Of a DNA stretch of 64,000 bases, positions 23,188-62,938 are shown piece by piece. The notes below the pieces were generated by a model. That model did no database searches and was not told the DNA's origin. It saw only the letters and a program-made list of their open reading frames with translations. A program made the position numbers and the translations under genes. This DNA is from Mycobacterium pseudokansasii. Its GTDB lineage: Bacteria; Actinomycetota; Actinomycetes; Mycobacteriales; Mycobacteriaceae. Position 1 is the first letter of the stretch. Each line of letters opens with the position of its first letter. The DNA lies in the NCBI RefSeq assembly GCF_900566075.1, contig NZ_UPHU01000001.1, forward strand, positions 62,001 to 126,000. Reading direction: 5' to 3'.

Positions 23188-24351
23188 GTGCTGGCTACGG
23201 TCGCGGTGGAGAATTACCGTTCGCTGCGCCAGGTGGTGGTTCCCCTGGGTCAACTCACCGTCGTCACCGGTCCCAACGGCAGTGGCAAATCCAACCTGTA
23301 TCGAGCGTTGCGCCTGCTGGCCGATTCGGCCCGCAACGGCGCGGTGGCGGCGCTGGCCCGCGAGGGCGGATTGCGCTCGACGATATGGGCGGGCCCGGCA
23401 GTGATCGGTAAGTCAGTACGCCAGGGGCGTCATCAGACACAGGGGACGGTCCGCACGGAGTCGGTCAGCCTCAAACTGGGCTTTGCCGGTGACGATTTCG
23501 GCTATGCCCTGGACCTCGGGCTGCCCATCGCCACCCGCACGGCGTTCGGGCTCGATCCGGAGGTCAAGGTCGAGGCGCTGTGGGTCGGTCCGGTGTGGCG
23601 CCCCGCCACCGTGACAGCGCAGCGCGGTGGCCCGACCGCGCGGGTGCGTGACGGGGACGGTGGCTGGCACCTGATTGCCGACGTGCTGCGGCCGTTCGAC
23701 TCGATGCTCAGTGAGCTGGCGGATCCGGTGCGAGCACCGGAGTTGATGCGGCTGCGGGAGCGGATGCGCAACTGGCGCTTTTACGATCATCTGCGCACCG
23801 ACGCCGACGCGCCCGCGCGCCAGCCCCGAATCGGCACGCGCACAACGGTATTGGGCCATGATGGCGCAGACCTGGCCGCGGCCTTGCAAACGATTCGCGA
23901 GATCGGCGACGATGAGGCGCTCAGTGAAGCCATCGAGCGCGCGTTTCCGGGTAGCAGTGTCGATATCCGCAACGCCGATGGCCGCTTCGAACTCGTGCTG
24001 CACCAGCCGGGGATGCTGCGGCCACTGGGCGCTGCCGAGTTGTCCGACGGCACCCTGCGATATCTGCTTTGGGCCGCGGCCCTGCTGACACCACGTCCAC
24101 CCCAGCTGCTGGTGCTCAACGAACCCGAGACCAGCTTGCATCCCGAGTTGTTGCCCGCCTTGGCATCGTTGATCGCCACAGCAGCCGAGTACAGCCAAAT
24201 CATCGTCGTCACCCACTCGGAACCCCTTGTCGCGACCCTGCAACGGGCCGCGGACGTGCACACCGTGCGCCTGATCAAAGAACTCGGTGAGACACGCATT
24301 GCGGGCCAGCGCCTGCTCGACCAACCGCCATGGCATTGGCCGCCGCGCTAG
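23188..24351 (+). CDS. AAA (SMC/RecF-like, OLD-type) ATPase
   Basis: A 387-residue single-gene ATPase of the AAA_21 kind. Walker A is GPNGSGKSN at about residues 29-37 after the typical ENYRSLRQVVVPLG. A signature LSDGTLR is at about 283-289, and Walker B LLVLNEPETSLHP is at about 304-316, followed by the H-loop VVTHSEPL. No TOPRIM nuclease domain is visible, unlike OLD nucleases. The GTG start has TAGCGT six bases upstream. There is no UvrD/REase partner nearby, so a defence role cannot be claimed. A terminator-like hairpin follows. Confidence 0.85.
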   Translation: MLATVAVENYRSLRQVVVPLGQLTVVTGPNGSGKSNLYRALRLLADSARNGAVAALAREGGLRSTIWAGPAVIGKSVRQGRHQTQGTVRTESVSLKLGFAGDDFGYALDLGLPIATRTAFGLDPEVKVEALWVGPVWRPATVTAQRGGPTARVRDGDGGWHLIADVLRPFDSMLSELADPVRAPELMRLRERMRNWRFYDHLRTDADAPARQPRIGTRTTVLGHDGADLAAALQTIREIGDDEALSEAIERAFPGSSVDIRNADGRFELVLHQPGMLRPLGAAELSDGTLRYLLWAAALLTPRPPQLLVLNEPETSLHPELLPALASLIATAAEYSQIIVVTHSEPLVATLQRAADVHTVRLIKELGETRIAGQRLLDQPPWHWPPR

Positions 24352-24396: not shown

Positions 24397-26016
24397 TCAG
24401 GCCGCGGTGAGTGCTGCGTTTGTGAATTGATTGAGGTGTCGTTCGAGTTGGCGCCAGGCGATCGCCAGATCGCTGCGTTTGGCGAGATCATCCGTTGGGA
24501 GCCTTGGGTCTAACTCGGCCAGGCCGGGTGCGAGAACACGTCCGTAGACCTTGGTGAACAGCACCGCGACGCGGCGGCCCAGCGGGGTGAGTTGGTAGCG
24601 GTGGTGGCCCGGCAGCCTGACGATGAGCCCCTTGCGTTTGAGCCGGCGCAGGTCATATGTGGCTTGGCGGCTTGTGTAGGAGCAGCCCAGCAAGGTGGTT
24701 ACCGCTCGAACCAGGGCTGGGTTGTCGAACCCGGCGAGCAGATGGGTGAATCCGACGATAGCGGCCAGCACCGCCATCACCCGCGGATCCCCGAACCGCA
24801 GTCCGGGGGCATGTTGACCGTCGATCTGTGAGGGTCGGGTCACCTCGGTGAAGGTGGCCACATCCGGAGCGGGCCGGGCATCGGTGGCTTGTGCGTCGCA
24901 TAGACGCTGGTTGGCATGCTCGCCAACCGCCCGAAGGGCCTTCCAGTTCTCGGCGGTCACCCGCCGACCGATGCCAAAATCGCGGGTGTCGCAGATGACC
25001 GTCTCGGTGCGCAACGCCCGATGCTCCTTGAAGTATTGCTTGATCCGACTCGACTTGTAGTAGCAGCTGATCTGCGGATCCACACCCTTGGTGATCACTT
25101 GGGTGCGCCAGGTGCCCGGCGTGCGCGAGCTGATGCGCCGGTCGAAGATCAGCGACACCTTCTCCGGGCGTCCGATGTCGAGGTGGTCACGGATGAGCTG
25201 TTCGAAAAACGATCGCCCGGCCGCGGGCCGGTCGAACACCCGGGTATCAGAAACCTCGAATTGGCGAAACGCCAGTTCGTAGACGTAGCCCGCACGCAAG
25301 TCATCGCGGGTGAACGGCGATGGCAACAGCTTTTGCCAGCGCCAAAAGAAGCTCTTCACCGCGCCCGACCCCAGTCGGTCGCAGATGCGCTGCAGCGCGG
25401 CGGGGTCCTCGCAGTCGCGGAACCCGTTGTCTAGAGCGGTGTAGCCGATGCCCAGCCGGTCGCATTGCCGTTGCGCCCAGGTGTGCCCGTTGAGCCAGAT
25501 CCACACCGGCCACGGTGCGTAGGCATTGGTCTTCCAAAACGCGCCACCCCAGTCGGGATCCCACAGGTAAAAGTAGAAATGATTAACAAAGCCCATCTGG
25601 CGAGCCCACTCCATGTGCGGATGAGCCACATGCTCTTGGCCCTTGGCCTTCCACGAGCGCCATATCGGGGTCTTTTCCTGCGCGATCCCGATCAACACCA
25701 CCCGCCCCTCGCCGCCCTCCCTTTCGGCTTCCTCGATCAATGGCCGCGCGATCTCCTCCTTGTTCTCGCCCTTGGCGAAGCGGCGCACCGGGATCGCGTT
25801 CGCCTTAGCCCACCGGTGCACCTCGGCGACGTAGGCGTCGCCGATCTTGCCGAACGCCGCCGACGACGGAATTCCAAACCCCTTCTGCCAGTACAGAAAC
25901 TGGCACACCCCGCCCACCGACTGCAGTTTCGGCACATATGCCTGCAAAAAGATCCGGTCCACCGACCGACAGGTGAGCGTCACATGATCGCACAGTAAAG
26001 TTGCATAGTCGGCCAT
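24397..26016 (-). CDS. conserved protein of unknown function with C-terminal winged helix, 539 aa
   Basis: I recognise this as resembling a widely scattered bacterial family without assigned function. The N-terminal 360 residues hold ungapped blocks rich in Trp/Tyr/Phe and acidic residues (IPSSAAFGKIGDAYVAEVHR, then NHFYFYLWDPDWGGAFWKTN, then YTALDNGFRDCEDP, then VSLIFDRRIS, then CDTRDFGIGRR). The C-terminal 120 residues form a winged helix (SYTSRQATYDLRRLKRKGLI) resembling transposon-linked or regulator domains. Several invariant-looking Asp residues could form a nuclease-like site, but no known catalytic signature is present. AAGGAGG precedes the double ATG. A 13-bp perfect hairpin lies about 45 bases upstream. 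Confidence 0.8.
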   Translation of the reverse strand: MADYATLLCDHVTLTCRSVDRIFLQAYVPKLQSVGGVCQFLYWQKGFGIPSSAAFGKIGDAYVAEVHRWAKANAIPVRRFAKGENKEEIARPLIEEAEREGGEGRVVLIGIAQEKTPIWRSWKAKGQEHVAHPHMEWARQMGFVNHFYFYLWDPDWGGAFWKTNAYAPWPVWIWLNGHTWAQRQCDRLGIGYTALDNGFRDCEDPAALQRICDRLGSGAVKSFFWRWQKLLPSPFTRDDLRAGYVYELAFRQFEVSDTRVFDRPAAGRSFFEQLIRDHLDIGRPEKVSLIFDRRISSRTPGTWRTQVITKGVDPQISCYYKSSRIKQYFKEHRALRTETVICDTRDFGIGRRVTAENWKALRAVGEHANQRLCDAQATDARPAPDVATFTEVTRPSQIDGQHAPGLRFGDPRVMAVLAAIVGFTHLLAGFDNPALVRAVTTLLGCSYTSRQATYDLRRLKRKGLIVRLPGHHRYQLTPLGRRVAVLFTKVYGRVLAPGLAELDPRLPTDDLAKRSDLAIAWRQLERHLNQFTNAALTAA

Positions 26017-26059
26017 CATTGCCTCCTTGGTCTGAACAACCCGAGGCTACGACCGACAC

Positions 26060-26089
26060 GAGGGATCTCCGAACACGGAGATCCCTCGT
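26060..26089. repeat. perfect 13-bp inverted repeat upstream of the 539-aa gene
   Basis: CGAGGGATCTCCG-AACA-CGGAGATCCCTCG is a perfect hairpin 45 bp 5' of the minus-strand gene start. It could be an operator, an attenuator, or a recognition hairpin for the encoded protein. Confidence 0.6.
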
Positions 26090-26144
26090 CTCTACCACCA
26101 CACCCGGCCGAATGGCCGAGCCTCAAAACTCACGTATGAGGACA

Positions 26145-26162
26145 CTCGCTACCGCTAGCGAG
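26145..26162 (-). terminator. hairpin overlapping the stop of the Cys-repeat gene
   Basis: CTCGCTA-CCGC-TAGCGAG forms a perfect 7-bp stem that includes the TAG stop at 26155-26157. It is probably a transcript-end or stability hairpin. Confidence 0.35.
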
Positions 26163-26586
26163 CGCTGGCCTGCACGTGAATGTTTCTGGCGCCCTTGGCA
26201 TTGCGCAGGCCGGAACAATTCACGCAGCCGACGCAGCCGACACAGTCGGTACAACGCACACATCCGACACAGGCCACGCACCGGGCGCAGGCGATGCATG
26301 CCAGGCATGCCAGGCATTCCCGGACGGCTATGCACAACATACTCAGCGCGCTGGCAATCACGGCGACACTGCCCGCGATAGCCGCCGACCCGGCGACCGC
26401 GACACTACCGGCGGTGGCGACCGAACCTGCTACTGCGACACTGCCCGCGGTTGCCGCCGACCCGGCGACCGCGACGCTACCGGCGGTCGCGATGGAGCCC
26501 GCGACCGCCACGCTGTCGCTACTGGCCAGCGAACCGATGATGGTGTCGGTGTCGGCGTTGACCGCCGAGTCCCAGGGAATTGCCAT
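26155..26586 (-). CDS. two-repeat protein: hexapeptide array plus Cys every third residue, 143 aa
   Basis: No known function. Residues 25-76 are about nine hexapeptide units of the form Gly-Ser-Val/Ala/Ile-Ala-Val/Thr-Ala. Residues 91-124 have a Cys at every third position (12 Cys in a row of Cys-x-x triplets, for example CLACLACIACARC), with another Cys at 85. The tail reads SGLRNAKGARN and is basic. The first unit may build a beta-solenoid. The Cys array could bind metal clusters, be modified, or form disulfides. I chose the ATG at 26586 (MAIPWDSAV), preceded by GAAGATGAG, over longer upstream frames. No maturation enzyme is visible next door. Confidence 0.65.
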   Translation of the reverse strand: MAIPWDSAVNADTDTIIGSLASSDSVAVAGSIATAGSVAVAGSAATAGSVAVAGSVATAGSVAVAGSAAIAGSVAVIASALSMLCIAVRECLACLACIACARCVACVGCVRCTDCVGCVGCVNCSGLRNAKGARNIHVQASAR

Positions 26587-26641
26587 GCGCTCATCTTCGC
26601 AGTTACCCAGGCGGAATTGAGAGCGGAATTCAGGGCGGAAA

Positions 26642-26701
26642 GCGAGCAGCCGCAATAGCCCCCGCACGCTCGGCGTGTCGGGGGGTTTTGCGGCTGCTCG
26701 C
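26642..26701. repeat. 60-bp nested palindromic unit
   Basis: The outer arms (26642-26663 and 26680-26701) match at 19 of 22 positions, including GCGAGCAGCCGCAA and its complement. The centre has CACGC-TCG-GCGTG. GCGGAATT is repeated on both sides of the unit (26611-26634 and 26710). It resembles dispersed mycobacterial intergenic palindromes and could end transcription in either direction. The whole gap 26587-26979 holds no supported gene. Confidence 0.55.
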
Positions 26702-61960: not shown

Positions 61961-62938
61961 TCAGACGTGGGGCAAGACCTCGTCAGTCAGCAGCTGCAGG
62001 CTGGCCCAGCCGGCGTCGAGCGGAAGCCCGCCGACGAGGGGGTTCATCACGACTTCCCTTCGGCCGCTGCGAATCTGGCCGATCAACTGCTCGGGTGTGA
62101 GGATCTCGACGTTGTTCAGGCCCCGCAGCTCCTCGACCGAGCCGGCCGGCTGCTCGTTGGGTCGGGGCACGCCCGACCGCTTCCAGGCGCTGTATTCGGC
62201 GGTCTCGTTCATGATGTAACTGCCGTAACGGGACCAGGCCTCGTCCGGGTCGGGGTGCAGGAGGGTGACGGTACTGCCGTTTTCGGGGTGATAGACAAAG
62301 CCCTGTTTGCCCTGGTTGCGCAGCTCACGCTGATACACCGCCGCAAGTTCGGGCATCGCCATCGGCGGCGAGAACGGCAGCCCGAAGCGCGCGGCTCTCT
62401 TGGCTGCCGCCGCCGTCATGCCGCCGACGAAGACGATCGGATGGGGGCGGGTATGCGGCTTCGGCGTGACGTTGATGAGTGCGCCCTCATACTCGAAGGG
62501 CTCATCGCGCCACGCCTGGAGCATCACCGACAGACAGCGATCCATCAATGCGCCGCGTTGCGGCCAGTCCTTGCCGACGGCGTGGTATTCCTCAGGCCGG
62601 TAACCCATTCCGGCTACCACGCTGAAGCGGCCCCGGGCCAGGTTGTCCAGCACGGCGATATCCTCGGCGAGCCGAATCGGATCGTAGAGCGGGACGATGA
62701 GGGCGTTGATGCTGATCCGCACGCTGCGGGTGCGCCCGGCGACCGCAGCGGCCAGAATCAGCGGCGAGGGCAGCCAACCGGTCCTGGACAGGTGATGTTC
62801 CTCGCCGCTGACCGCGGTGACGCCGTGGGTATCGGCGAACTCGGCCATCTCCAGTGCGGCCTGGTAGCGACCGGTGTGGCGGCCGGCAGGATCGGCGATA
62901 TTGGTCATGTTCAGCCGTAGTGCGGTGAGCAGGCTCAT
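61961..62938 (-). CDS. LLM-class (luciferase-like) flavin/F420-dependent oxidoreductase
   Basis: A 325-residue TIM-barrel bacterial-luciferase-family protein. Features are GVTAVSGEEHHLSRTGW near the N-terminus, INALIVPLYDPIRLAEDIAV, LDNLARGRFSVVAGMGYRPE and HPIVFVGGMTAAAAKRAARF. The family reduces or monooxygenates varied substrates using FMN or, in mycobacteria, often F420. The ATG overlaps the TetR stop (TGATG), so it belongs to the operon headed by the TetR gene and is likely controlled by it. Confidence 0.9.
   Translation of the reverse strand: MSLLTALRLNMTNIADPAGRHTGRYQAALEMAEFADTHGVTAVSGEEHHLSRTGWLPSPLILAAAVAGRTRSVRISINALIVPLYDPIRLAEDIAVLDNLARGRFSVVAGMGYRPEEYHAVGKDWPQRGALMDRCLSVMLQAWRDEPFEYEGALINVTPKPHTRPHPIVFVGGMTAAAAKRAARFGLPFSPPMAMPELAAVYQRELRNQGKQGFVYHPENGSTVTLLHPDPDEAWSRYGSYIMNETAEYSAWKRSGVPRPNEQPAGSVEELRGLNNVEILTPEQLIGQIRSGRREVVMNPLVGGLPLDAGWASLQLLTDEVLPHV

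Follow-up and report, generated by a model that had tools for sequence, protein, structure and literature searches.

A widespread, unnamed family of small mycobacterial proteins with twelve cysteines at three-residue spacing

The locus and its open reading frame

This study focused on a stretch of 64,000 nucleotides (the window) from Mycobacterium pseudokansasii, assembly GCF_900566075.1, which corresponds to positions 62001–126000 of a larger contig (NZ_UPHU01000001.1) in a genome of 6.43 Mb. On its minus strand, at window positions 26155–26586, lies an open reading frame (ORF) of 143 amino acids (aa) plus a stop codon, with an ATG at 26586, in which a run of Gly-Ser hexapeptides is followed by an array of Cys-x-x triplets. 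The protein belongs to a real, widespread and conserved family that has not been named. Its parts are given below with the evidence for each, including the AlphaFold2 (AF2) model and its predicted local distance difference test (pLDDT) scores.

26155..26586, minus strand: whole ORF, 143 aa, with ATG start at 26586 (homologues)
26533..26586, minus strand: variable N-terminus, residues 1–18 (alignment; AF2 pLDDT <50)
26371..26532, minus strand: Gly-Ser hexads, residues 19–72, forming a 12-residue repeat of the SVAVAG + SIATAG kind (36-bp tandem repeat, alignment)
26317..26370, minus strand: apolar linker, residues 73–90, through which the six-residue register continues (S73, S79, C85, C91)
26215..26316, minus strand: Cys-x-x array with 12 Cys, residues 91–124 (944 of 948 cells Cys, 79 loci)
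26173..26214, minus strand: conserved tail SGLRNAKGARNIHV, residues 125–138 (alignment; AF2 bridges every third residue)
26155..26172, minus strand: variable C-terminal end, residues 139–143, and stop codon

The cysteines stand at residue 85 and then, exactly three residues apart, at 91, 94, 97 and so on to 124. A sequence-only reading of the window had described nine Gly-Ser units followed by twelve consecutive Cys-x-x triplets at residues 91–124. The triplets are borne out, with the one extra Cys at 85, but the perfect consecutive GSxAxA units number seven (starting at residues 30–66), and nine are reached only by adding the imperfect end units DSVAVA and GSVAVI. The DNA beneath the hexads repeats in tandem with a unit of 36 bp (4.1 copies, 73% matches); the tandem-repeat scan reported none over the Cys array. 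The 19 residues that follow the array, SGLRNAKGARNIHVQASAR, extend the triplet pattern with L127, A130, A133 and I136 in place of Cys, and these triplets are read as a capping coil.

Conservation, distribution and coding status

A scan of GTDB contigs gave 136 relatives, of which the best 80 were kept, and 79 of these 80 loci entered the array counts (L056, whose array was missed by the array search, was dropped). At the twelve array positions Cys occupies 944 of 948 cells, encoded by 738 TGC and 206 TGT codons, compared with 1 of the 1738 cells in between, and a single array length is kept across the 79 loci, so that conservation of the array cysteines is far beyond chance. Divergent members have 8 to 11 consecutive Cys, and their tails can still be recognised in part. 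The best 80 of the 136 come from Mycobacterium, Mycolicibacterium, three Pseudonocardia species and uncultured actinobacteria, the closest named relatives among them, by the Cys-array protein, being M. persicum, M. attenuatum, M. innocens and M. gastri, which makes membership of the M. kansasii complex probable for the source of the window. A typical family member is also found on a contig labelled Bifidobacterium breve (L086, CAMCWJ010000270.1), which is probably mis-binned.

Within a genus sample, 141 of 297 genomes match at E 0.001 or better, with seven weak matches (E 2.7e-6 to 1e-3; G035, G060, G115, G145, G194, G252 and G282) that may be to the repeat only. The family, order and phylum samples, all of which include genus members, have 19 of 201, 56 of 298 and 10 of 396 matching genomes, respectively. 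Outside the genus, strong matches were seen in 6 of 12 genomes of the family sample, 4 of 40 of the order sample and 2 of 4 of the phylum sample, both of the last falling outside the class. Matches in 36 of the 40 non-genus genomes of the order sample (E 3e-9 or worse, mostly Ala/Gly repeats) and in 6 of the 12 of the family sample (likewise weak) were discarded, as were G948 and G1021 of the phylum sample, which are Cys-Pro/Gly and Cys-Ser-Gly frames.

It could be supposed that there is no protein gene here and that repeats in the DNA, or an opposite-strand gene, have left the frame open. The hexad stretch is indeed made up of the 36-bp repeat, and a plus-strand ORF (146 aa, 26180–26620), with the wobble base in common, stays open in 73 of the 80 loci. 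A codon test was applied to 327 sequence pairs at 80–97% DNA identity, which are not mutually independent. The synonymous share of codon changes was 0.708 in the Cys frame, the highest of the six, versus 0.497 in the opposite-strand frame and 0.05–0.13 (0.134 or less) in the remaining four. Moreover, Cys is retained although its codons vary, and strong matches occur outside the genus too. Since homologues keep the Cys spacing and this frame has the top synonymous fraction, the ORF encodes a conserved protein and is not the by-product of a DNA repeat (a by-product frame being what the sequence-only reading had named as its own refutation); the likelihood that no gene exists is negligible. By the same synonymous test, the plus-strand ORF at 26180–26620 is a by-product of codon choice and a trap for gene callers.

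Relation to known families

Pfam gave no match to the window protein at E up to 1, and NCBIfam gave a weak LpxD-type hexapeptide match (PRK00892), which at 10.5 bits is far below the cut-off of 207 and sets the protein apart from the left-handed hexapeptide helices of the LpxD type and from YadA-like heads. We know of no Cys arrays in LpxD-type or YadA-like families. When 77 members were searched against Pfam at E up to 10, matches were scattered over 22 families, including collagen triplets (18 of 77 members, best E 1.2e-6), silk, bactofilin and FapA, and these are taken as low complexity. Neither the window protein nor the 77 members had a match to the Pfam family of the copper storage proteins (Csp) among those listed; PF02420, the family of the Tenebrio-type insect antifreeze proteins, did not match the window at E up to 1, nor is it among the 22 families listed for the members at E up to 10, in searches whose filters lose weak matches. 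Nine PHROGs families appeared at E up to 10, of which phrog_15341, of unknown function, was alone significant (E 3e-7, on the array). PADLOC gave no match for the Cys-array protein, and the best PDB match by sequence had an E of only 0.39. Among the titles and abstracts found by literature searches, none describes the present family.

The protein was also considered as phage or plasmid cargo, and this was rejected: the whole protein has no match in viral contigs, plasmids or phages, and the Cys domain alone has none in plasmids. Phage records do give 18 matches to the Cys domain alone at E up to 1, 17 from Campylobacter and one from Flavobacterium. The Flavobacterium match overlaps a gene for which the annotation gives VAP/IAP repeats in a different frame, and is probably an out-of-frame artefact. 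In the protein of Campylobacter phage CC_R7 (XLL17427.1; L144:3626-4348; 240 aa), encoded between the portal protein and DNA ligase genes, 63 of 67 array triplets begin with Cys, but hexads, tail and a 12-residue period are lacking (lag 4, p 0.48; lag 8, p 0.04 of eight lags), and the likeness is likely to be convergent. In the accessible portions of two Campylobacter phage papers (PMC3322345, PMC2853527) the string 'cystein' does not occur. The top viral structure matches, which are matches of structure alone, were H6SUK4 of Campylobacter virus IBB35 (E 1.1e-3) and A0A5B8IEK9 of Mimiviridae (E 2.2e-3). The implication of the sequence-only reading that the Cys spacing is without parallel does not hold, as both the heterocycloanthracin precursor (PMC2674419) and the Campylobacter phage protein have Cys-Xaa-Xaa arrays.

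Register, period and predicted fold

Across all 79 sequences, the 90 residues preceding the array contain 718 GS dipeptides, of which 715 sit at multiples of six residues from the first Cys. There are 4 to 12 GS units per sequence, the 4 belonging to L092, in which the upstream frame is apparently shifted. GS is present in 12 of 13 divergent members, and 11 of these 12 are in the main register to the last Cys, L153 being different. Because the GS register is shared with the array, a pair of Cys triplets substitutes for one hexad, the Ser and Val/Thr positions becoming Cys. Within the array, the two residues that follow each Cys show a hydropathy that recurs at a lag of four triplets, or 12 residues (r 0.60, p 0.006; best-of-six-lags p 0.024), also when calculated on 26 nonredundant rows (r 0.66, p 0.005; best-of-six p 0.016), with triplets 4, 8 and 12 being polar or the least apolar. 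In the tail the triplets go on for another 12 residues, mostly with Leu/Ala/Leu/Val at the Cys positions. As far as can be judged from sequence, the shared GS/Cys register and the 12-residue period point to one continuous solenoid.

The AF2 model has three-residue strands every six residues over the Gly-Ser hexads (low pLDDT), a low-confidence helix at residues 76–87 of the linker and, over the array, bridges rather than helices at modest confidence, with a pLDDT of 82–86 for most of it. The nearest PDB fold match, a weak one, is a beetle antifreeze protein. From the lag-12 periodicity, the AF2 model and this fold match, we infer that the protein is a narrow beta-solenoid whose core consists wholly of Cys. 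A different possibility is that the protein is membrane-associated or self-assembling, with its very apolar repeats inserted or stacked and its cysteines used for acylation, cross-linking or redox. Its composition (GRAVY, the grand average of hydropathy, of 1.04; 7 K+R, 6 D+E and one aromatic residue in 143 aa) and the predicted helix at 76–87 would suit such a protein. A Gly-Ser turn at every sixth residue and the short strands that are predicted do not, however, fit the pattern of a membrane helix, and the register is conserved through the linker; this possibility seems quite unlikely.

The beetle antifreeze coil shows, in the part of the source consulted, an 'in-out-out' residue pattern, of which the 12-residue repeat between the cysteines of the array would be reminiscent. 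There are clear differences from the Tenebrio molitor protein (1EZG; TCTxSxNCxxAx), since here all four inward positions of each coil would be Cys, and the family is without TxT rows. Its N-termini also differ: by a simple signal-peptide rule, 57 of the 59 that were testable are not signal-like, while one passes and L105 just misses (the other 20 of the 79 have no ATG in range). As the N-termini are not signal-like, the protein is probably cytosolic and its thiols reduced. In a second view of the solenoid, the cysteines would be paired across the coil, like C2–C8 of beetle antifreeze, to give a ladder of disulfides and a very stable rod, exported by a non-classical route and having a structural, surface-binding or ice-binding role. 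Such a ladder is chemically natural for a beta-solenoid fold but requires an oxidising place, and is rather unlikely. The sequence-only reading had suggested a tight solenoid with Cys on one face, which was the right kind of structure; more exactly, Cys seems to lie at every inward position of a 12-residue coil. The observation as a whole is confirmed, and the structural guess was broadly right.

Gene context

A check of homologues and their neighbourhoods, as had been proposed from the sequence alone, was fruitful for the protein, in which the Cys spacing and an NCSGLRN-type tail are kept, but not for its surroundings, where no cluster of neighbouring genes is common to more than 29 of the 80 loci. 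Clusters identified by Pfam on one member each were a short-chain dehydrogenase (29 of 80), a succinate/fumarate dehydrogenase flavoprotein (19 of 80) and a Nudix protein (17 of 80). The contexts of divergent members differ again and, by eye, include pyruvate dehydrogenase (PDH) and lipB genes (L156) and groEL (L162, L168). A simple gene caller puts the upstream gene on the strand of the Cys gene in 53 of 70 cases, and the downstream gene in 42 of 70. Since contexts differ among loci and no cluster exceeds 29 of 80, an operon partner was rejected, there is no guilt by association, and function is not told by the operon.

Around the gene itself, the scan for promoter-like sites found none, and the window has no Rfam match. 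One terminator-like site (0.5 expected) lies about 190 bases past the stop codon (25954–25969, minus strand). Two strong inverted repeats flank the gene, at 26642–26701 upstream (23-nt arms, 91% complementary) and 26055–26092 downstream (17-nt arms, 94%), neither of them flagged as terminator-like. Downstream is an ORF of 540 aa (24397–26019, minus strand) with no Pfam match over cut-off, no NCBIfam match at E 1 and no PADLOC match. In M. persicum (L031) an AAA ATPase gene directly follows the Cys gene, so the 540-aa ORF may be an insertion in the lineage of the window. Further along, at 23188–24351 (plus strand), is an AAA_21 ATPase with best PADLOC matches to the HEC-01A and AriA models, possibly a stand-alone OLD/Abi-like gene.

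Could the cysteines be modified?

Arrays of Cys-Xaa-Xaa mark heterocycloanthracin, the precursor of which is mostly encoded away from its enzymes, by 1.27 Mb in B. anthracis (PMC2674419). The present protein might similarly be the precursor of a ribosomally synthesised and post-translationally modified peptide (RiPP), with an azole or thioether on each Cys, as proposed for heterocycloanthracin. Like the heterocycloanthracin/sonorensin precursor (TIGR03601), it is a small bacterial protein with a Cys-Xaa-Xaa array, and in 70 of 74 members the Cys domain has a weak TIGR03601 match (best E 0.0019). The Cys domain of the window protein, on the other hand, scores 10.6 bits (E 0.66) versus a curated cut-off of 35, over the array part only, and the full-length protein is not listed at E 1. 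The array length is fixed in 79 loci, while the bacteriocins vary by Cys-Xaa-Xaa indels, and no neighbour is common across the family.

Among the maturation enzymes, the analysis covered YcaO, counted when above cut-off. The genome of the window carries three full-length YcaO genes and a fragment, and the one tested adjoins a TfuA gene (by Pfam). At first sight the association is promising, as 23 of 28 YcaO-bearing genomes of the genus carry the Cys family (naive Fisher p 1e-4, or 4e-5 without the 7 weak family matches), but the test ignores phylogeny and the two may simply mark one species group. The reverse fails: in 118 of the 141 carriers no YcaO match reaches the cut-off, and the YcaO genomes G075, G116, G226, G236 and G249 lack the Cys family. 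YcaO is therefore no constant partner, and was rejected as such; for a heterocycloanthracin, maturation enzymes would be expected in every precursor genome, and here YcaO is above cut-off in 23 of 141 carriers. Modification by YcaO is unlikely as a rule, and a RiPP precursor of any such kind appears quite unlikely.

The YcaO genes are also notable in number, with some members of the genus carrying as many as seven matches. In all five YcaO regions fetched, the full-length YcaO gene is adjoined by a gene whose sequence start is alike, recognised as TfuA by Pfam in L180 only. The order is YcaO and then the TfuA-like gene (L180:8570-11235, L181:16002-18721, L182, L183 and L184), with no evident precursor adjoining; the five regions contain three short Cys-rich ORFs, none convincing. 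TfuA acts in thioamidation, and these loci are possibly a thioamidation system with an unknown substrate.

A possible metal-thiolate solenoid

Of the mechanisms considered, a metal-thiolate solenoid is held, tentatively, to be the best. Hexapeptide coils would lead into about three 12-residue coils with Cys at every inward position, and a cap coil of 12 residues (LRNAxGxRNxHx), with aliphatic inward positions, would close the solenoid. Lacking a signal peptide, the protein would stay in the cytosol with its cysteines reduced, and soft metal ions, Cu(I) or Zn, could then be taken up into a tube made by the 12 thiolates. We infer the fold, the location, the redox state and the metal alike. By analogy, twelve inward thiolates in a small protein would suggest soft-metal binding: Csp3 is a cytosolic copper storage protein with many Cys facing into one core, according to the portion of the published account consulted (PMC5171941), and the solenoid would work like that Cys-lined core while being unrelated to it. 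Csp1 and Csp3 are four-helix bundles, so that the likeness is one of working only.

Two results weigh against the 12-residue period: when the three tail triplets are included the significance of the lag-12 signal is lost (p 0.11), and residue conservation across the array carries no such signal (p 0.57). A metal-induced gene, at least one under the regulators considered, is made less likely by the lack of a convincing site in 80 upstream stretches, which were scanned with regulator motifs against mononucleotide shuffles, one shuffle each. The best matches were Zur-like with 5 mismatches, RicR- and CsoR-like with 2, and IdeR-like with 7, all of which are reached by the shuffles. Relative to the shuffled stretches there is a slight shift towards closer Zur- and Fur-like matches (Zur at five mismatches, 15 versus 7), and towards closer LexA-like ones as well (26 versus 11 at three mismatches).

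For the family as a whole, it is possible, if somewhat doubtful, that its members bind polynuclear Cu(I), or some different soft metal, in a tube of thiolates and are thus the equivalent, as a beta-solenoid, of metallothionein and Csp, perhaps polymerising via the apolar hexad coils. In any case, a strictly conserved 12-Cys protein is present in many mycobacteria and some other actinobacteria, and its member in the window falls under every curated family cut-off. If the cysteines line the core of a solenoid, metal-thiolate or disulfide chemistry would have been found in a new architecture, and the family would offer a convenient test of how a reducing cytosol keeps twelve adjacent thiols. If they are modified instead, the family would represent a very widespread, stand-alone RiPP precursor.
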